Assembly: GCA_964035015.1 (NCBI GenBank)
Contig: OZ036017.1
Coordinates: 6,118,080 to 6,182,079, forward strand
DNA from: Corallium rubrum
Taxonomy: Eukaryota; Cnidaria; Anthozoa; Scleralcyonacea; Coralliidae
DNA: 64,000 nt
Direction: 5' to 3'
In this document: positions 9,435 through 26,790 of the stretch, one piece after another
Numbering within the stretch: the first letter of the stretch is position 1
Layout: each line of letters begins with the position of its first letter
Notes under the pieces: generated by a model
Database searches by the model: none
The model's input: only the letters and a program-made list of their open reading frames with translations
What the model was told of the DNA's origin: nothing
Program-made: the position numbers and the translations under genes

Positions 9435-9697
9435 TAGAAGTAATATTGGACATTTCACTCGATTACATAGCATGTTCTAAGGATTTTGGGTGAAGGAAAA
9501 TTCGAGTGTAGAATATATACATTTTAAGACCAAACCGGGACCAGTTGCGAAAAATGCAACTACACAGGCCTTCCGGCAGGAATTGAACCCACGACCTTGC
9601 GATTCTAGTGCAATGCTCTGACCATTGAGCCACGGAGGCCGTTGTCGAGAGCTTGATCGCGAGTTCTGTATATATTAAGGTGGTAATGCCAGGAGAA
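9435..9697 (-). mobile_element. tRNA-derived SINE, copy 1
   Basis: Minus strand. The tRNA-like head is 9567-9640: GGCCTCCGTGGCTCA is the acceptor and A-box region, and GTGGGTTCAATTCC is the B box. It folds into D, anticodon and T arms with a near-complete acceptor stem. The anticodon-loop position reads AGA, but there is no long variable arm, so this is a SINE head and not a functional tRNA-Ser. A shared tail (AAATGCAACTGGTCCCGG-like, then GAATTTTCCTTCACC) follows. It is directly repeated by the next copy. Confidence 0.85.
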
Positions 9698-9705
9698 CTG
9701 GGTTT

Positions 9706-9972
9706 ATTAGAAGTAATATTGGGCATTTCACTCGATTACATAGCATGTTCTAGGGATTTTTGGTGAAGGAAAATTCGGGTGTAGAATATATACATTTTAA
9801 GACCAAACCGGGACCAGTTGCGAAAAATGCAACTACACAGGCCTTCCGGCAGGAATTGAACCCACGACCTTGCGATTCTAGTGCAATGCTCTGACCACTG
9901 AGCCACGGAGGCCGTTGCCGAGGGCTTGATCGCGAGTTCTGTATATATTAAGGTGGTAATGCCAGGAGAGAA
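9706..9972 (-). mobile_element. tRNA-derived SINE, copy 2 (tandem)
   Basis: Head at 9840-9913 on the minus strand. It is nearly identical to copy 1 over its whole length, in the same orientation, about 9 bp further on. Either two insertions occurred at one site or the first was tandemly duplicated. Confidence 0.85.
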
Positions 9973-14769: not shown

Positions 14770-15045
14770 ACAATTATCCAAGTTCAGGGCACATGGGAGT
14801 CAACGGTTGCTTGGAACGCTTACAACAACGATATTACTGGCCAGGGATGGCGACAGAAGTGCAGCAGCTGTGGATAGCCGAGTGCGAACAATGCAACCAC
14901 CGTAATTAAACACCCATCACATCACATCACATCACAAAGGGCGCCTATGACGAGTATAAACGTTGGACAGCCTATGGAACTATGGGCCATGGATGTTCTA
15001 GGCCCACTCCCGATAACTGCACGCAGTAAGCAGTGTATGCAGGCT
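14770..15045 (+). pseudogene. Gypsy integrase, zinc-binding and start of core domain
   Basis: The translation of about 14785-14905 gives an H2C2 zinc-binding domain (HMGVNGCLERLQQRYYWPGM, then CEQC). 14947-15030 gives the start of the catalytic core with ELWAMDVLGPLPI, holding the first Asp. A stop lies between them in the CATCA-repeat linker (14920-14935). The rest of the core is found 10 kb away at 25330, separated by the 9.9-kb transposon and a RecQ-like scrap. Confidence 0.8.
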
Positions 15046-15164
15046 CGATTTCCAGCCGTATCTCGGGGCCCAGAACTTACCTCCCCCGAAATCTATGGTT
15101 GGCCATTCGTTTCAAAATTGGGTCTTCGTATACGGGGCTTTTTTGCACGTATATTTCTATATTT

Positions 15165-15455
15165 TCATCTGTTTGTACGCGTATATACGCCTATTTTCGA
15201 CGCATGTATACACGCGTCTTTTTGTACGCGTATATTGGCGTTTTTATACGCGTATATACACGCGTCTTTTTGAACGCGTATATACACGCGACTTTTTGAA
15301 CACGTATATACACGCGTCTTTTTGAACGCATATATACACGCGTCTTTTTGAACGCGTATATACACGCGTCTTTTTGAACGCGTATATACACGCGTCTTTT
15401 TGAACGCGTATATACACGCGTCTTTTTGAACGCGTATATACACGCGTCTTTTTGT
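15165..15455. repeat. Left subterminal ACGCGT repeat array
   Basis: About ten tandem copies of a 26-bp unit, 'ACGCGTCTTTTTGAACGCGT' followed by ATATAC. Two variant units near the outer side contain CGACGCATG. Each unit has two ACGCGT palindromes. This looks like an array of transposase-binding sites by analogy with other transposons with subterminal repeats (inference). Confidence 0.9.
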
Positions 15456-15515
15456 AACCGAGCGAGAAGACTGGTACGACTATAAATAAGAGAAATATAA
15501 AATTCTTGGCAAAAG

Positions 15516-17039
15516 ATGGCGGATAATAATTATGTATTGACAGTTGATTTACTGGAAGCAATAAGACTAATATTAAATGATTGTAGAAGACATTATCCGA
15601 CGACAGACCGTAATATGGCAGAGAACTTAGTTATTCGTTTACAAGTTGCTGTCGAATCAGTTGACCGTCTGATGAATACGTTAATTGGTACTGGTCGTGA
15701 ACCTCAAGTACTACAACATCTTGTTTCCCTGGATACTCAACTTAGATCCCTATTATACAGGTGGGAAGTTTTAACTATCGGAGCAAGCTCATGCACCAGA
15801 GTTAATCCTGCAAGAATACTACCCGAAGTGAATAATGACCCAACTCTTCGAAGAGTTGGTCGTCCATCATATGACATTTCTATACCACAGTTAGAGTTCT
15901 TCAGGAATAGGATGAGATTTACCTGGAATCAAATTTCATCGATGCTCTTGGTTTCAAGAACAACACTTTGGCGAAGAGTCAGAGATGTCGAATCATTTAG
16001 CCATTATTATACTGACATAACAGATAATAATTTAGATGAATGTATTCGTAGACTAAGGCAAACTTTTCCCAATTCTGGTATAAGCATGATGCTGGGACAC
16101 TTACGTAGTCGAAATGTCTATATTCAGCGCCATCGGATACGCGCGAGTTTGGTGAGAATTGATCCAGTGGGAAGTTCCTTGAGGTGGCTCAACAGTGTTG
16201 CTAGACGTGTATACAGTGTGCCAGGGCCAAACTCACTTTGGCATATTGATGGACTGCATGCCTTGATACGCTGGAGATTTGTAGTCCATGGAGGAATAGA
16301 TGGGTTTTCTAGACTTATTGTTTTCTTAGTCTGTTCAACGAACAATCTAGCTTCCACAGTACTAACAAATTTTATGGCAGCTGTGGATAGACATGGATGG
16401 CCATCAAGCGTACGGTCTGACAAGGGGGGTGAAAATGTTGATGTGGCAGAAGCTATGCTAAGACACAGAGGTCTTAACAGGGGAAGTCACATTGCAGGAG
16501 TATCTGTTCATAATCAGCGCATTGAGCGATTATGGAGAGATGTGTTTGTTGGTGTTTGCCACTTTTTCTATACACTCTTCTATAGTATGGAAGAAAATGG
16601 AATATTGGATCCAACAAATACAGTTGATCTATTTTGCCTACACTATGTTTTTTGTCCAAGGATAAATCATCAGTTAAACCTTTTCACAGGAGCTTGGAAT
16701 AATCACCCACTGAGAACTGAGGCAAACTGGAATCCTTGGCAAATTTGGGTTAATGGAGTTATTTCTCATGAAAACATGGAGAATACTGCAGTCAGAGATG
16801 TTTTTGATGGGATCACACCACCTGGTGATCTGTACGGTATGGATCCACAAGGACCTCCACCAAATGAATTTGACCTTGGCACTGTTGAAGTACCAGATAC
16901 AACACTCCCATTGAATGATATGGAACTTAGAACTATTTCACACATCCAACCTCTTGCTTGGAGTAATAACTATGGTGTTGACATTTACTTGGAAACAAGA
17001 ACAATAATTGCCACACTTATGGAAGCAAATATGAGATAG
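15516..17039 (+). CDS. IS3-like DDE transposase (rve fold), 507 aa
   Basis: Intronless gene that starts just inside the left TIR (AAGATGG context) and ends in TAG. Predicted to cut and join the element's TIRs in the nucleus. Residues 1-100 are helical and unrecognised. About 112-157 is a helix-turn-helix (GRPSYDISIPQLEFF, FTWNQISSMLLVSRTTLWRR). About 176-216 resembles the HTH_21 segment of IS3 OrfB (SGISMMLGHLRSRNVYIQRH). The rve core follows: LWHIDGLHAL (D245), VRSDKGGEN (D302), HNQRIERLWRD (E337), giving a D-D-34-E triad with all three residues present. The C-terminal 100 residues are acidic and Pro-rich. No stops or frameshifts. Ginger or retroviral-type integrase is the alternative family. 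Confidence 0.9.
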   Translation: MADNNYVLTVDLLEAIRLILNDCRRHYPTTDRNMAENLVIRLQVAVESVDRLMNTLIGTGREPQVLQHLVSLDTQLRSLLYRWEVLTIGASSCTRVNPARILPEVNNDPTLRRVGRPSYDISIPQLEFFRNRMRFTWNQISSMLLVSRTTLWRRVRDVESFSHYYTDITDNNLDECIRRLRQTFPNSGISMMLGHLRSRNVYIQRHRIRASLVRIDPVGSSLRWLNSVARRVYSVPGPNSLWHIDGLHALIRWRFVVHGGIDGFSRLIVFLVCSTNNLASTVLTNFMAAVDRHGWPSSVRSDKGGENVDVAEAMLRHRGLNRGSHIAGVSVHNQRIERLWRDVFVGVCHFFYTLFYSMEENGILDPTNTVDLFCLHYVFCPRINHQLNLFTGAWNNHPLRTEANWNPWQIWVNGVISHENMENTAVRDVFDGITPPGDLYGMDPQGPPPNEFDLGTVEVPDTTLPLNDMELRTISHIQPLAWSNNYGVDIYLETRTIIATLMEANMR

Positions 17040-18200
17040 ATCATTACACAGTGAGTTCATAAGAAAATATAAATTTTTATTGTTAAATTTCAAAGCACAA
17101 GTGATGTTAATGATACAGTGTAACAAGTTAAAGTGGCTCTCAGATGAAAATATTGTTGGCAATGTTTTTGCTTAATCCTAAAGATGTTATGGTAGTTGGT
17201 AATCGTGCAAAGTTTCATTTCAAAATTTGGTGAAGAAAAGGTGATATTTTACAGTACTGTAGGCTCAATAACAATGACCCTTTTGTTGACAACAACAATG
17301 ATCTTTCGTTTTATTGAGTCTATGACAGAAGTTTTTCTCCAAAATACAAACTTTACACTTAAAATACAACTTTGTTTTTGAGAATTTTGAAATGAAACAT
17401 TGAAACTCCGTACAATTACTACCATAATGTCTTTAGGATTATGCAGAAACATTACCAAAAATATTTTCAGAGAACGACTTTAATTGTACAGTATTTGCCT
17501 GCAGTTTTCTGTAATACCATGCTTTGCATCCTGGAATGTAACTCAGAAACAAAACAGTGTTATTTGGAAAAAAATAGTTATAAATGGGTAAAAATTATTG
17601 TTGAATGTTGATGTGCTACTATGTGAATTTGGTTTAAACACAAAGTCACAAACAAAGACAAATTAATGTGTTTTCTGAAGGCACTAAAATTTTACACCTA
17701 ATTCTATCCCAACTTTTTATAATTACATACAGAATTTGCTGGTGGAGACTTGTCTTTCTAGTACTCAAACATCCAGGAGCAAAACAGCATTCAGATTTAC
17801 ACACTTATAGGACTTTTTCAATCTGCTCAATATAATTATTTTGTCAAAACAAAATAACATTGAGGAGATACCCCCACCCCTGATGGTGCAAAGCATTATG
17901 GTACTTCATTTGTAAAAGAATACAGTCATGTAAAGTGCTTTGGTTTAAAAATAAGATAAATTGGCTATTAACCCACATACAGTTGGTTACATACCTGTAT
18001 ATCTGTAAAGTTTTAAATTGTGCTGTCTTTCTTTAATTATACAATAGGTAGAATAGTAAAAACTATAATACAGTATCTTTAAACTTCATGACAAAAATGG
18101 TAACCATTCTTTAACACAACGTAAAAAGATGCTTTTAAATTAACATGTCAAACTTGTTATTGCAGAACAATAACTAAGTTCAAGGGGTGGTTTCAGTAAC
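17040..18200. other. Intergenic region between convergent transposon genes
   Basis: AT-rich, no genes. It should hold both 3' UTRs. An AAAATATAAA stretch just after the transposase stop could serve as a poly(A) signal region, but no signal is decisive. Confidence 0.5.
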
Positions 18201-21200
18201 TCACGTCAACCCAAACCCCATGGATCCAAAAGCTATAGCTGTGTCAAGCTTTTTGAAAAATACATTCTTGCTGGTATGGATTACTGGAAGCTTGATAAGA
18301 CCAAAACATGCCTGTGCCATGGGTAATTCATTTGTGTCATCATCACTTAAATATTGTATGGATAGCCTGCAACTGAGGCCAAGAGGGGGTATACTTCTGT
18401 ATCCTGTTGAAAATTGCAGCAAAGGCACAAGTCTCCCTTCTGGAAATTCTGGAAATTAAGAATAATATAAAACAGGGATATTTTCAAGCATTTTAGTCTA
18501 TAATACTACCTTTTTCAAAGATCGAGTTTAGTGACAATCTGCCAATCTTTGCATCCAGAGTGTATTGATGTATGTAAAGCTTTGCAGCTCAGGGAAGTTG
18601 AAGGGGGGATGTTTATAATCTATCTTATTTCACACTGGCAAAAAAATAAATTTTAAGGAAAATTCAGTCAAATTTTATAAAATTCTGGTATTTTTAAAAA
18701 AAACAACCCACATACTGTAAGAAGATTGAGTTTCAAAGACCTGTTGGAAATACATCACATTATAAGATCATCAATAACTATACTAACATCGCTTGAAGGA
18801 GGTAAGTCAGTTATGTCCCCATTTTTAAAGAATGTTTTCCAACTTCAATGTGAGCAACAGTTACTGGTGGATGTTTGAGCAATTGTTCACCCCAAATATT
18901 ATGTTCTAAGGGTACTGGGGCAAGAATACTGTAAGTGGTATTGGGGGAGAGGATAATTGCCCCTAGAAACAGTTCTTCTGTGCTAATAACTAACCTTCAC
19001 AAGGTGTATCCCCATTCTCAATGTATTTCATGAACCAGTCATAGATTTGGCAATCAGGGTATTCACTTGGCTTGATACAGTCCTTGGAAAATAGACTCTT
19101 GAATTCTGCTGCTGTAAGAGGATGTTCCTCGTGTACCAGGAACTTTTTGAATTGACTGGGATGAGCTTCCATTATTGGCAGAATTCCAACAATGCCAAGA
19201 CCTTTCCTTATCTCATCCATTGACTTCACTCTCTTTCTTATAACCTCCTCGATGATTAAGCCTTGCACTATTTCACTCTTGTTTGTGATCAAAATAGCTT
19301 GTGTACAAGGCCACCCTGAACCATTAATGACTTCCAAGTATTCTGGTACATCAAGTAATGAATCAATTTCTTCTTGTGTTGAAGCTAAATCCATCTATCA
19401 TGTAATGTAAATACAAAGATTAATTTTATACATTAAATTAATGTACTGTACAACTATATGACTTATGAGTAATATTGGGCATTTCACTCGATTACATAGC
19501 ATGTTCTAGGGATTTATGGTGAAGGAAAATTCGAGTGTAGATTATATACATTATAAGACCAAACCGGGACCAGTTGCGAAAAATGCAACTACACAGGCCT
19601 TCTGTATATACAGAACTCGCGATCAAGCTCTCGGCAACGGCCTCCGTGGCTCAGTGGTCAGAGCATTGCACTAGGATCGCAAGGTCGTGGGTTCAATTCC
19701 TGCCGGAAGGCCTGTGTAGTTGCATTTTTCGCAACTGGTCCCGGTTTGGTCTTATACAGTAATGTATATATTCTACACTCGAATTTTCCTTCACCATAAA
19801 TCCCTAGAACATATATGACTTATGTATTTTAAATCTTGAATTTCAATTTAAACAAGAAATCTATTATCATTGTACAAACCTTAGCAATAACATCATGAAT
19901 TGCAAGTGTACTAGCATCTTTAGGAATATCATCACTACATGGTAACATAGACATAGATTGAACAACTGCATCTTCTGAGGCTGTACACAAGTACTGATAT
20001 ACAGCAGGTGCAAGCATAGGATATGCTGGACCAGCCTGTAATAAAGAATGCCCTATGATCATGCCTGCAATAACATGATGGTTACTTCCCCAGGACTTTC
20101 TTGGAATACGTCTTTCAGCCTTTCCCTCGAAGAATCTTTTATCCATTTCTTGTAACAGGCAACTAAAGAATTCAGCTTTTATGGCCCCAGCATCAAGCCC
20201 ATCCTCCCCATCGAAGCTAATTGTAAGGTTTCTTTGCAACTTTGATTTGTCTCCCATACACTGCTTATAAAATGTTAAGCCAGACTTCCATATTTCTTCT
20301 CTATTTAGACACAAAAAGTGATCATCATATTTGTTTACTAGCTTTGATATCTCTCTTTGCAGCAGCTCCTCAGCAGTCATTGTAATGTCATTATCATCCA
20401 TCATGCATGGGAATTCTTGACTATCACAAATCCACTCAATGACATCTGAAGCAGTTGCAAGGGAGCCCTATGTTAAATGTTGATAAATAATTAAAAAAAA
20501 TGTTAGAACACACTAAGCTACTGATCACTTAGTATAACATTCTTTGAACTGTTTGAAGATAAAACCAACTAGATGCTCATGTAAATTTGCATGTACATGT
20601 ACACTACTCATGTTAAAGCTTGTATGGGGTGGTCTGGCTGGTAAGGGCCATTTGGGGGAAGTAAGGCTAAAAGACGAGCCCTGAGGAAATATCCCAAGTA
20701 CAACTAGTTACAAGAAGGGCAGTTGAATAAAAGAGAAAAATGGGTGTGTTTGAATCTCAAAACACTAGTGAGTCATTTGGAAATTATGTACAAATCATGA
20801 TCAAAGTGCATGCAGTTAGGGCTGTGGACCCATCCCTTCCTTGCCTTAGTTTGTTTTGGGGTTTTTTATTTAAACTTTATTTTTGCCCTAAGAGCTTACT
20901 TATAATATAAATTATAACCACAAATTATAATAATTTATATAGTCAAAGTTAAGGTGTGAATATGCTTCTACATGTTAACAAAACTAAATTAAAAGCTTCA
21001 AAAGTTCAATCAATCAATTCAATGAGCATTAAATTGTAAAAGTATGTAAAATTATGATTGTTGAAAAGTATTGCATATTACATACACAGGCTAATATTCC
21101 TTTGTCAGCATCTTCTGATGAGAAACCAGCTTCAATCACATATCCTTCGAACATAAAGGAAACAAAATGTTATGGGTTTTGTTTGGCCTGTGTCAACTCA

Positions 21201-24200
21201 CATGGGATTTACAGACATGAAGGGCTGGGTGATTTGAGGAAATTAAATATATAATATATAAATAGTATAATAGCTGCAACACAATGTGTGGTGATATTGC
21301 TTTATAAAATAAGGTATCCTCTACAAACTCTGATTGGCTGGGATCCATGCATTTACACATGCAATATTTGCTGTGATTTAACTCCTTCTGACACATGCAA
21401 TCAATTACCAAATGGAATGACTTACAAATGTATAATTGAACTTTTTGTTCCAAATTATATTGTTCAATACAGTACTTTTGTTAGTCATCCATTCAATCTC
21501 ATGCATCAGGATGAGAAAAATCACAACAAAAATCACCTGAGTGCGGACCTCCACCAACATTACATCCCAAAATTATAAATAAATTGTTATCTGTTATAAA
21601 TATATATTTTTAATCATAAAATTAATAAGCCCATATCACAGCATATTTTCTTTTTGTATTTGAGGGTTATATTATCAGAAGAATTTTGCTTCATTAATAT
21701 TAATAGGTGGGGCTTATGCATGGTTCAATTATTGTTGTGACCATCTCCCCCCCTCCCTGGGGAAACATATACATACCCACATGAGAGGGGTTTACATACT
21801 CAAAAAAGTTATATTTCCAAGGGCACAGCGTATTTTTGGGGTTATTATCAAAGGTACAACAGTATACAGTAGTTGGTATGTGTGGAGGCCTACTTACTTT
21901 TAACATCTTCACTGGTAGTATCCTCAATGGTGGTACAAGGTGTTTGATGAGATGTTCCAGGTAATGGATTGTTCATCCTACATGAGATTGCGGTTTTGTC
22001 AATGGTGACTAAAGAAGTTTGAGTGGATGTTCCAGTTAATGGATTGTTCACCATGCATGATGTTGGGCTCTTGCCGACAATGACTAAAGACGTTTGAGTG
22101 GATGTTCCAGCTAATGCATTGTTCACCCTGCATGGTGGGGTCTCCACTGGAGGCACATTTGATTGCTGACAAGGTAAGAACATAGTGAGTTAGAGAGTTA
22201 TTACTATAGTTTCTGAATTCTGATACAGTAGTACAGTATTGGACAAAAGTTTTTGGCCACACAAATGTATCTGTTTTCTTGCATGTCTAGGTATAATTAA
22301 TTGTAAATTGAATGGCGATAAATGTGAAACAAAACAAGACATACTACATGTACCAGTATTTTGAAATATTCAACCAAATCATATACACAATATGGGTGTA
22401 TTTCAATATGAAAGGAATGTACATGTATTTCAACAAATAGGCAACTGAAGATGTTTGTCCAGCAGAACTGTAGATAAATAAGATGCATGCTTTCTGTTAC
22501 TCAGTGCTGGATTGACCTCATGAATCTTGACAATGGCACAAAAAAAACATTTTAGAGGAACCAATGACTAACCAACCTGAACAAACAATTATAATTGCAT
22601 TTCGGCCAAGTGTAAAACTGAAAATGGGTGTGGAATGGACAAACTTAACACTGAACAAGTCCACAGAATAACCCAAAGGGCATGCATGTAATTTGATTTT
22701 GAAATTAATCTGATATAAAAGTGCAAATTGCACCATGGTTATAAATATCCACTGGCTTTATACACGTACTAATAGTAATAGTATCTATCTCCAAAAATAT
22801 CTTACATATGGAATGGTTTCCAATCCAGATGACAAAACTGTTGCTGTTGAATGTAGATCGTCTTGTACAAGCATATAAACGATTCCTTGTCTGTAATTAC
22901 ACTGAATACCTGCTCCATCATATGTTGCAGAAGACCTTGTTGTCACTTTTCCATTTTTTCTGTGAACAAAACGAAGCTTTCCTGGTTTTAGCTCACTGAT
23001 ATTAGCCTTATTTGCTTGTGGTTGAGAGTTAAATGCAGTACATATATATGTCAAAATGTCACCCTCAGATGTTTGATCTGTATACTCTATATTTCCTTCC
23101 CAGATCTCTTCAAAATTCTTGTATGGCCAAGGTTCTGGTATTTCTCTGGAGCTTGATCCTCTCTTTTTACAAAGCAGTTGGACTACTTTGCGTTTGCATG
23201 GCCTGACTTGAGTGTATGGTGATGATCTGTTCCTTGATCTCGCTTTTTGTCTTCGAGGAATACTGGATGATCCATGTTGGTTATAGCTACTCATGATACC
23301 ACTGATATTGCCCAGTGCATTTTCAATGGTTGTATTGAATGAGTTGCTGTTCCGAGCTTGCTGTTGTTGCTGATTTTGTCCTCCAAACATACTGCGTAGA
23401 GTTTCATTTACTAGTATTTAACAAAAAAAAAGAAAAGTACATGTACTGTGTACAGTATTTAAATAATATACAAAAAAAAAAAGATGGGATACAACAAAAA
23501 AACTTTTTATAGTTCACATGACCAGTTACTTATGGGGAAGAAGGGGAAAATTAAGGGGTTACATGGATGAAAAAAAAAAAGATGTAGCAGGAGGCTAGCA
23601 ATAGGTGAATAGGCTCCACCCACTACCTAATATGTTTATATTAATTTGTCTCCCCCCTCCCCACTCACTCAGTCATAGGATAATTTCAGTAAACATGACA
23701 AAGCAAGTAAATGAAGGGGGGTCATGTCACAGAGCACATTATATAATATGGAGGGGAGTCATTGTCAAATTTCTGTTCTCTTGCAGGGCTTCCCATTTAC
23801 ACAGAAAGTAAAAGAGAATCACTGCCTCCACAAGCACAGATCATAATCGTATTGACTGGTCACTGTCTTTATACCGGACTGTTCTTTTTCTTTTGGGGGA
23901 GTTCCAAAATAGATAATATCACCATCCCTAGAAGAATGATACAAAATAATATATAATACATAAAATAATATAATATATAAAATATATACAATATAATATA
24001 TAAAATAAACTATGAATGGAGCATGTGTGCCCAGTGCCCCCTCATCCACTGGTTGACGTCCATTATTTGGTAGACTCTGTCTCTACAGTACAAAATACAT
24101 TATTTCTAAATAGCTAACTTATATTTAAAAGATCTTCATTTACCGTAGAAGAGAAGGATCTTTTAGTAACCCCAGATCCCCATTAAGTACTTGTATATCA

Positions 24201-24458
24201 GGACTATTGTGAATGCCAAGCTCCCTCTTTATCACGTCAAGCGTGGTAGGAATAGCCATATACTATGAAAAATGGGGAAATTCATCAAACATGGGACACA
24301 GTTCTATACCAGTATCAGTAAATATCCAAGTTTATTGGCGTGAAACTGTACGTTAAAACAACATAAATTGGTAAGATCAAACTCACCGTTCCACCTTGCT
24401 TTTGTCCTACCGGACGGATGAGAATCCTAGAAGGCCCAGCAGAAGAATTTTCACACAT
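18201..24458 (-). CDS. UBL-UBA-HECT E3 ubiquitin ligase gene, 9 exons
   Basis: Exons (5' to 3'): 24458-24387, 24262-24144, 23927-23823, 23391-22806, 22165-21898, 21144-21086, 20467-19880, 19394-18995, 18448-18201. All introns are GT-AG and every phase matches, giving 814 aa. Residues about 11-77 look like a ubiquitin-like beta-grasp (RILIRPVG, LLKDPSLLRDGDIIYFG). 100-294 is a Q-rich linker with a basic stretch. About 305-380 has three 25-aa repeats (NNPLTGTSTQTSLV). About 384-418 is a UBA split over two exons (IEAGFSSEDADKGILAC + GSLATASDVIEWI). About 445-814 is a HECT domain (FDGEDGLDAGAIKAEFF; LPMAQACFGLIKLP with Cys780). Closest in type to G2E3-like HECTs. Exon 3 has a weak donor (GCA|GTGATT); without it a 99-aa UBL protein ends at 23819 and a UBA-HECT protein could start at 23390. 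An in-frame upstream ATG is at 24593. Confidence 0.85.
19468..19811 (+). mobile_element. Palindromic tRNA-SINE with 13-bp TSD
   Basis: Flanked by the perfect duplication TATATGACTTATG (19455-19467 and 19812-19824). The tRNA-like head is 19639-19712 on the plus strand (GGCCTCCGTGGCTCAGTGG, B box GGGTTCAATTCC). Unlike the copies at 9.4-10.0 kb, the tail is present on both sides as inverted arms: AAATTCGAGTGTAGATTATA at left and its near reverse complement at right, both continuing through GACCAAACCGGGACCAGTTG. It lies in the intron between exons 7 and 8 of the HECT gene, so it arrived after that gene was in place. Confidence 0.85.
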
Positions 24459-24592
24459 CGTCTTTTCACTTTGAACACAGAATAAAGAACTGAGGTTTGA
24501 ACACTGGCCGAAGTCAACTTTCTGTTCCGCCTCCCCCCGTGACACAGAACGATATTTGCCGCCATGACTTTGCGCGCGAAAACAAATTCGCA

Positions 24593-24860
24593 CGCGTATA
24601 TTCCTCGTTCAAAAAGACGCGTGTATATACGCGTTCAAAAAGACGCGTGTATATACGCGTATAAAAAGACGCCTATATACGCGTACAAAAAGACGCGTGT
24701 ATATACGCGTTCAAAAAGACGCGTGTATATACGGGTACAAAAAACGACGCATATACGCGTTCAAAAAGACGCGTGTATATACGCGTACAAAAAGACGCGT
24801 GTATACATGCGTCGAAAATAGGCATATATACGCGTACAAAAAGACGCGTGTATACATGCG
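24593..24860. repeat. Right subterminal ACGCGT repeat array
   Basis: Mirror image of the left array: about nine units of AAAAGACGCGTGTATATACG type, with two outer CGACGCATG variants. Unit number and order differ from the left array, so the TIRs diverge here by repeat gain and loss while the outer 140 bp stay near identical. Confidence 0.88.
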
Positions 24861-25112
24861 TCGAAAATAGGCGTATATACGCGTACAAACAGATGAAAAT
24901 ATAGAAATATACGTGCAAAAAAGCCCCGTATACGAAGACCCAATTTTGAAACGAATGGCCAACCATAGAAATCACGGCTGGACACGTGAGCTTGTCCATT
25001 GTCGATTTGCACCAATCACAAACGTGGCCGCACATTTTCAGCACGCATATATTATTGGGATGATTACGGTTATTGCACGAATTACCCCGTTGGTTCAAAA
25101 TAGAGTGCTGAT

Positions 25113-25320
25113 CAATGATTGAGGCGTGCGAGCGCATTTTAGAAACGTTTAAGATTGATGATCTAAAAGATTTACGTCAAAAAGCTCTAAAGCAACTGGT
25201 TAATGGCAAATATATTTTTGTCATTCAGCCTACAGGATCGTGGAAGTCACTTATAATTCAGTCAGCTTCCATGGGTTTTGATATAGTGAAATTAATTCAT
25301 GCAAAACGTCAGACACATTC
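25113..25320 (+). pseudogene. RecQ-like helicase fragment with altered Walker A
   Basis: The translation contains LRQKALKQLVNGKYIFVIQP then TGSWKSLI, matching the N-terminal helicase motif I region of RecQ-like proteins (QxxAL...GxDVFVxxPTGSGKS). The invariant Gly before Lys is Trp, which should abolish nucleotide binding. The reading passes straight into gypsy integrase sequence at about 25320, so only a scrap of the helicase gene is present. The 9.9-kb transposon landed in its upstream flank. RecQ-like genes of this kind are often carried by cnidarian DNA transposons (recollection). Confidence 0.6.
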
Positions 25321-26790
25321 TGTGGTTCACACTGACTACAGAAGGAATTGCGAGGCGGAACTTATGAGGAAGGAATTTCGAGGCGGATCTTACGAAACGA
25401 GTGTTTCATCTTTTGGGTGTAAATAACCTGAGAACTTCAAAACCACTACACTAAACCACTACTGTACTATCCTCAAAGCAATGGACAGGTGGAGAGGTTA
25501 AACCGCACCCTCAAAGGAATCCTCACGGCCTACGTCAACAAGGACCATAGTGATTGGGATGTTCACTTACCAAGCTTACTAGCTTTGTTTGCGTACCGGA
25601 AAAGTGTACATTCCCCATCCGGAGTGTCGCCCTTCAAGGCAGTTTACGCACCAGGCCACCACACCGCTAGTGCACGTGAGCATTCCGTTAGAAGCAACAG
25701 TTCATTTCAAATTATTGCGACGAGCTGGAAAAGACCTTGAAAGACGTCCATAACGGCATTGCAGCCAACATAAACAGAGCTTGAAATAACGGCCGGCGGC
25801 CGGCGGTTTTCCGACCAAATTCCAGTTTCTCCGACCAAATGCTGAAATGATCGGAAATTTTGTCCGGACAAATTTTGAAGAAAAAAAAATCTGTTTTTTT
25901 AAATGATCGGGTCGGCGCTCAACACTACATTTTTCTTGTTAAATTTCCATTGGGTTTTCCATCAGTTTTGAGTTAAAGTTGGTTTTACACTTTACAGTGC
26001 ACTATCAAAATTTCTTCGATCAGAATGTGCTTTAAACAAAGTTTAGTTAATTTAAGTGTGTGACAGTGAGTTACGAGTCAGAGTGACTGCTTTCATTGTT
26101 GTTAATTTGACGACCTTGGAAGATAAAGAATACGTTTCCTCGACGTTTCGAGCAAAGGCCCTTCATGATCAGGACAGTTAAATAGGCTGATCAAATAGGC
26201 TTATTTGACTCTCCTGACAAAGGTCCTGAGCTCAAAACGTCGAGGAAACGTATTCTTTACCTTCCAGGTTGTCGAGTCCAGATAACAACAGTACGTGATT
26301 TTTAATTCAAAACCATTGCGTTAAACTGCGATTGACGCCATTGTAATCACAGAAACTTATCGTGTAATCCAGCTTTTCAGTTTAAAGTTGTTTCATAGTT
26401 ACCATTTTAATTAAATTATTATTCACTATAACTAATACGCAATTCAGAATTAAACATTTGTGTTTTATTATTACAAATAACAAGTAGAGTGACTTACTGC
26501 ATGCTTGACAGAATTTACTCAACGGAGGGGGTCAAACTAAACTAAAAAATTTCCGACCAAATTTGAAAATTTCCGGTCAAATTTCATTTTGCTCGGAAGT
26601 TTTGCCGGACAAATTTTAAAATTATTTCAGGCTCTGCATAAACGAGGCAAAAAGGAGGCCGAAGAACGGGTATGATGACTGCAACAAGGTCAACCAAAGT
26701 ACTTCGTTTGAGCAAGGGGACCGCGTATGGCTCAATAACCAAGCGGTTCCAAAGGGATTAAAAGTAGTGTTGAAATACAAATCGAAATAT
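25321..26790 (+). pseudogene. Gypsy integrase core and C-terminus, interrupted
   Basis: 25325-25430 holds the second catalytic region (VVHTDYRRNCEAEL) with a frame break. 25468-25530 holds PQSNGQVERLNRTLKG with the catalytic Glu. Then follows an LPSLLALFAYR region. The frame is cut at 25774 by an 862-bp element and resumes in frame at about 26638 (GYDDCNKVN, FEQGDRVWLNNQAVPKGLK). It is the other half of the integrase at 14770-15045. Confidence 0.8.
25775..26636. mobile_element. 862-bp non-autonomous element with TSD CATAAA
   Basis: Ends CAGAGCTTGAAATAA / TTATTTCAGGCTCTG (14 of 15 bp inverted) and the flanking 6-bp repeat CATAAA (25769-25774, 26637-26642). Excision of the element plus one CATAAA restores the integrase frame. 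Near both ends are TTCCGACCAAATTT-type words in both orientations. Inside, 26116-26270 is itself an inverted repeat (GAATACGTTTCCTCGACGTT and its complement). The CAGAG ends recall hAT, but hAT TSDs are 8 bp, so the superfamily is open. Confidence 0.8.

Follow-up and report, generated by a model that had tools for sequence, protein, structure and literature searches.

Transposons of the IS3EU/GingerRoot superfamily are described in the available text of PMC10045372 as carrying a DDE transposase, TA..TA termini and, as a rule, 6-bp target site duplications, with no HHCC zinc motif ahead of the integrase core; the words HECT and ubiquitin each occur zero times in that main text as available. The fungal TET-positive IS3EU families treated in the available part of PMC12730594 have TAYGG..CCRTA ends, 6-bp duplications and an alpha-kinase gene opposite to the transposase, and their TET/JBP genes are proposed there to aid escape from silencing. 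Kolobok, as far as the available part of PMC9587614 covers it, is likewise a DDE superfamily whose accessory enzymes vary by lineage, but its transposase is different, the enzymes are nucleases, helicases and KolX, and HECT occurs zero times. Here we describe a transposon of Corallium rubrum (15094..24967 of the window, the 64,000-nucleotide stretch of contig OZ036017.1 in assembly GCA_964035015.1, positions 6,118,080 to 6,182,079) in which a DDE transposase gene is paired with a gene for a predicted HECT ubiquitin ligase. The DDE transposase, TA..TA termini and 6-bp duplications are shared with the IS3EU/GingerRoot elements of PMC10045372, and the similar ends, the 6-bp duplications and an extra enzyme gene opposed to the transposase with the fungal elements described in PMC12730594, which have the alpha-kinase and TET/JBP where this element has the HECT ligase. 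Nothing joining IS3EU with HECT was found in the open-licence PMC literature, which excludes Repbase Reports, and broader literature searches there listed nothing pertinent; IS3EU and ubiquitin co-occur in PMC8965078 and in PMC11645255, where the ubiquitin passage was unrelated.

An earlier annotation made from the letters alone (the sequence-only reading) had proposed matching terminal inverted repeats (TIRs), a GAAATC duplication and an intact DDE triad, all of which proved exact. The element ends in TATGG...CCATA, in agreement with TA..TA and TAYGG..CCRTA termini. Its left TIR (15094..15235, plus strand, starting TATGGTTGGCC) and right TIR (24826..24967, minus strand, ending GGCCAACCATA) are perfect over 142 bp and run on imperfectly to ~360 bp through 26-bp tandem repeats, and the duplications lie at 15088..15093 and 24968..24973 (unstranded). 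Subterminal 26-bp arrays lie on the left (15168..15454, plus strand, 11.3 copies; possible transposase binding sites) and on the right (24592..24893, minus strand). When the 16-base TIR tip was searched for in the window with up to three mismatches, only two sites were returned, both of them ends of the element. The transposase gene (15516..17039, plus strand) encodes 507 amino acids and matched the integrase core rva_4 (PF24764), which we take to be a marker of IS3EU, at E=3.8e-86, with D245, D302 and E337 in place. No zinc-binding integrase domain was among its Pfam matches up to E=1, as expected for IS3EU. One relative of the transposase carries a coral name (Montipora).

The HECT gene lies on the minus strand, convergent and tail to tail with the transposase. 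Its eight exons, from 24458 to 18201, are joined by GT-AG introns with matching phases into an open frame of 779 amino acids. Exons 1 (24387..24458, with the proposed ATG) and 2 (24144..24262) were placed from splice signals alone. Exon 3 (22806..23391) contains a basic stretch that is a candidate nuclear-localisation signal, exon 4 (21898..22165) contains 75-bp tandem repeats, and a weak UBA-like stretch begins in exon 5 (21086..21144). The N-lobe is encoded by exon 6 (19880..20467), followed by exon 7 (18995..19394), and exon 8 (18201..18448) holds the C-lobe, the aligned catalytic cysteine Cys745 and the stop. The HECT domain (PF00632) was matched at residues 499-778 with E=4.3e-14 and 53.3 bits, against a curated cut-off of 23.9. 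Cys745 aligns with the catalytic C-lobe cysteine of SMURF2 and is conserved in four aligned relatives. A public protein search with the HECT protein returned three proteins, two of them partial; the closest, P0001 (701 amino acids), is 69% identical across residues 380-779 and collinear with exons 3-8; its 3803-base contig may be a spliced transcript. The gene had been labelled a multi-exon UBL-UBA-HECT gene, and while the HECT domain and the exon structure stood, the first two labels are weak: neither UBL nor UBA was among the Pfam matches of the window protein up to E=1, where HECT alone was listed, and the UBA match in P0001 (E=0.061) was below the cut-off.

Other copies of the family were searched for in the genome (G000; 474 Mb, 312 contigs) with a 507-bp left-end query. 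All 14 matches were ends of six two-ended copies, namely the window copy and five others (C25:10.86M, C28, C1:23.2M, C25:3.14M and C30). The 6-bp duplication differs among all six and their flanks are mutually unrelated, so that six insertions show the element to be one mobile unit. Transposase and HECT exons were present in 6/6 copies, several of them damaged, and among the copies matched by this query none combined these TIRs and a transposase with a lack of HECT. The TATGG...CCATA ends were found in the window copy and four of the five others, with C25:3.14M altered further in; the right tip of C25:10.86M has one base changed (CTATA). The HECT frame is uninterrupted in the window copy, C1:23.2M and C30, where however the AG before exon 8 is missing; C28 has extra bases inserted in exon 2, and in C25:3.14M exons 1-2 were unmatched and further exons are broken, with one stop. 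The transposase frame is unbroken in two copies, the window copy and C30, and split or shifted in C1:23.2M, C28 and both C25 copies. Identity to the window copy in aligned blocks was 94-99.9%, hence the family moved fairly recently. Codon differences from the window HECT gene were counted per copy, with shared changes scored in each copy and gaps and missing exons excluded: one in C28, two in C1:23.2M and five each in C30 and C25:10.86M (9/13 silent, no stop), and 16 in C25:3.14M (nine silent, six changed, one stop). The element had been said to contain just two genes, which holds save for a foldback repeat (19501..19812, unstranded) in the intron between HECT exons 6 and 7, with arms of 53-56 bp that are 96-98% complementary and a tRNA-Pro-like core at 19640-19712; the C1:23.2M and C28 copies have a reversed segment at this site.

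Three diverged families yielded five further complete elements, each with TATGG TIRs and 6-bp duplications around a transposase gene and a HECT gene convergent with it: C51:2688475-2696112 (CTGGAA), C209:64707-72337 (ATTGTC), C82:1582593-1588316 (TCTTTG), C52:5121429-5129095 (GAAAAT) and C1:48446242-48453918 (CTTATG). The co-residence of both genes within one TIR pair, claimed for the window copy, thus extends to all six copies and to these five elements. The five places were picked because both genes had already been seen there, and they therefore show the pair inside TIRs and not its frequency. A 6-bp duplication was found in 11/11 complete elements (six focal and five related); for C51, C209 and C82 the scan required a near-match duplication, while in the remaining eight TIRs or copy comparison had fixed the ends beforehand. 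In C51, C1 and C82 the HECT gene is one large frame of 640 to 657 amino acids, but from the first ATG only 556 amino acids are encoded in C51 and 524 in C82, and these two genes may therefore have a further exon upstream. Beyond the complete C82 element, ~230 bases from its right end, lies a short-period tandem array (L051:6048-7001).

Across five families, transposase and HECT identities were correlated at r=0.98 (1/120 label permutations as high), and HECT identity was below transposase identity in 10/10 family pairs. In the closest pair, C51 and C1, the ratio of nonsynonymous to synonymous substitution rates (dN/dS) was 0.09 for the transposase, at a synonymous divergence (dS) of 1.8, and 0.10 for HECT, at a dS of 2.3. 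HECT dN/dS was 0.22 to 0.28 in three other pairs (dS 2.0 to 4.2), a further pair gave values near 0.24 at an even higher dS, and the remaining values were saturated. This comparison indicates that the HECT gene is kept under purifying selection. The occurrence of both genes in all copies and in related elements, together with their parallel divergence, argues that many IS3EU-like transposons of this genome have inherited HECT as a second gene.

Pairing was also counted across the genome. The transposase query gave 86 matches, and 150 of 1351 candidates were scored with the PF24764 profile; three HECT queries gave 65, 131 and 70 matches, of which the set of 70 was left out. The count used all transposase and PF24764 matches, all 131 HECT matches and 15 of the 65-match set, the other 50 being judged duplicates of places in the 131-match set or focal copies. 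After merging, 157 transposase and 118 HECT loci were listed. Of these HECT loci 32 had a listed transposase at most 10 kb away (31 convergent, one on the same strand), where uniform placement would give about 0.8; the observed fraction is a lower bound, because both kinds of loci were taken only among the matches listed. Most of the 157 transposase loci had no listed HECT within 10 kb. A less selected sample took in 21 loci centred on a transposase and flanked by 1.5 kb on each side (L026-L048 minus the focal pieces L027 and L031). HECT was detected at E<1e-6 in seven, and L030 added one through the HECT query. Six of the remaining 13, hand-picked, were extended, and HECT was found in three: C188 (E=1.5e-21), C299 (three exons) and C8 (E=2.9e-6, a weaker and degenerate-looking match). 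The tally was HECT in 11/21, none within ~6 kb in three, and seven viewed with 1.5 kb flanks only. HECT is thus frequent but not universal among IS3EU-type loci. At 80% identity, the HECT-bearing loci with transposase sequence fell into 11 groups, counting the focal one.

Several points weigh against an inherited pairing. The null of uniform placement disregards transposon clustering. No listed transposase was within 10 kb of 86/118 listed HECT loci; some of these are surely host genes, and any of the others may belong to an element, to the host or to a domesticated copy. In the three other extended loci (C39, C221 and C23) no clear HECT was found in ~6 kb downstream, C221 having a match at E=0.018 and C23 a Ty3-like pol frame. 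The strength of selection is rough, since dS is high even in the closest pair and other values are saturated.

The fold was modelled on the sister protein of family C1:48.4M, and not on the window protein, using alignment A3 with eight rows, in which the weak matches P0126 and P0127 served solely as rows. A first model from alignment A2 (four rows) was poor, with a predicted local distance difference test (pLDDT) score of 38, and was discarded. The HECT fold and the C-lobe cysteine are common to this protein and to the cellular HECT E3 ligases (UBE3A, SMURF2, HUWE1, UBR5), whose identity to it ranged from 14-22% over the fold alignments displayed. The cellular ligases have another N-terminal part, whereas the window ligase sits in a transposon. 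In the model, three helices are predicted in the UBA-like region. The fold searches hardly probe residues 1-250 of the sister protein, and no fold is assigned to that part. No distinctive host HECT parent emerged: SMURF2, UBE3A, AREL1 and HUWE1 all matched, none clearly ahead. The N-terminal domain of the sister HECT proteins (~residues 10-140) has matches in numerous other, separate open frames of the genome, a pattern that suggests many multi-exon relatives.

Within the element, an imperfect inverted repeat (17145-17469, 52-bp arms, 88% complementary) lies between the 3' ends of both genes. The flanking frames 14878-15087 and 25112-25740 look retroelement-like by eye, and the frame 25432-25737 had a sub-threshold integrase match alone (rve_3, E=0.049). 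Two tRNA-Ser(aga) genes were predicted on the minus strand of the window at 9567-9639 and 9840-9912, with ~200 bases between them.

We regard the element as an autonomous cut-and-paste transposon of the IS3EU kind, whose inherited HECT ligase likely, if by no means certainly, acts in the nucleus on element-limiting proteins, host factors first. The DDE transposase, which would bind the repeat-bearing TIRs, moves the whole unit, leaving 6-bp duplications, and the ligase, inherited alongside it across many families, would work in the nucleus and pass ubiquitin via Cys745 to the proteins that limit the element. Its targets would be host silencing or repair factors first and the transposase-DNA complex second; we infer ligase activity, nuclear site and target from sequence features. 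Two observations put host factors ahead: the faster evolution of HECT relative to the transposase, and the presence of different enzymes (alpha-kinase, TET/JBP) in the fungal IS3EU elements. A bolder form, which we offer tentatively, would have IS3EU elements reserve a place, convergent with the transposase, for a second gene whose product modifies proteins, filled by an alpha-kinase in rust fungi and by HECT here, with the ligase as a dedicated counter-defence that removes silencing factors through the host ubiquitin system. It is somewhat doubtful that the ligase acts mainly on its own transposase, clearing the transposase-DNA complex after strand transfer, as ClpX does for the phage Mu transposase complex, or limiting transposase dose. 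Such a direct partnership would fit the co-inheritance and parallel divergence of both genes, but the consistently lower HECT identity fits host targets at least equally, and some related loci seemingly manage without HECT.

Gene capture by transposons occurs, and the seven introns retained in the focal copy would suit a host gene that was captured once and is carried as passive cargo with no benefit to the element. We consider this improbable, as 11 transposase groups hold HECT in the same convergent place, the gene is one large open frame in three sequenced families, and the closest pair points to purifying selection. The unpaired majority of listed HECT loci means that HECT genes also occur elsewhere, as they would if host HECT genes merely came to lie near IS3EU insertions by chance or insertion preference. 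To this we give hardly any credence: HECT lies inside the TIRs of every complete element delimited, one orientation prevails in 31 of the 32 near pairs, and the flanks of the focal copies are unrelated. Where complete elements were delimited, in four families, this explanation is refuted.

If the favoured reading of an IS3EU-type transposon with an inherited, nuclear-acting ligase is true, protein degradation would join the means that transposons may use in dealing with their hosts, through a conserved ubiquitin ligase belonging to the DNA transposon lineage itself, and part of this genome's large set of divergent HECT genes would be accounted for. Concrete gene pairs are now at hand for asking whether the ligase is aimed at silencing factors or at the transposase.

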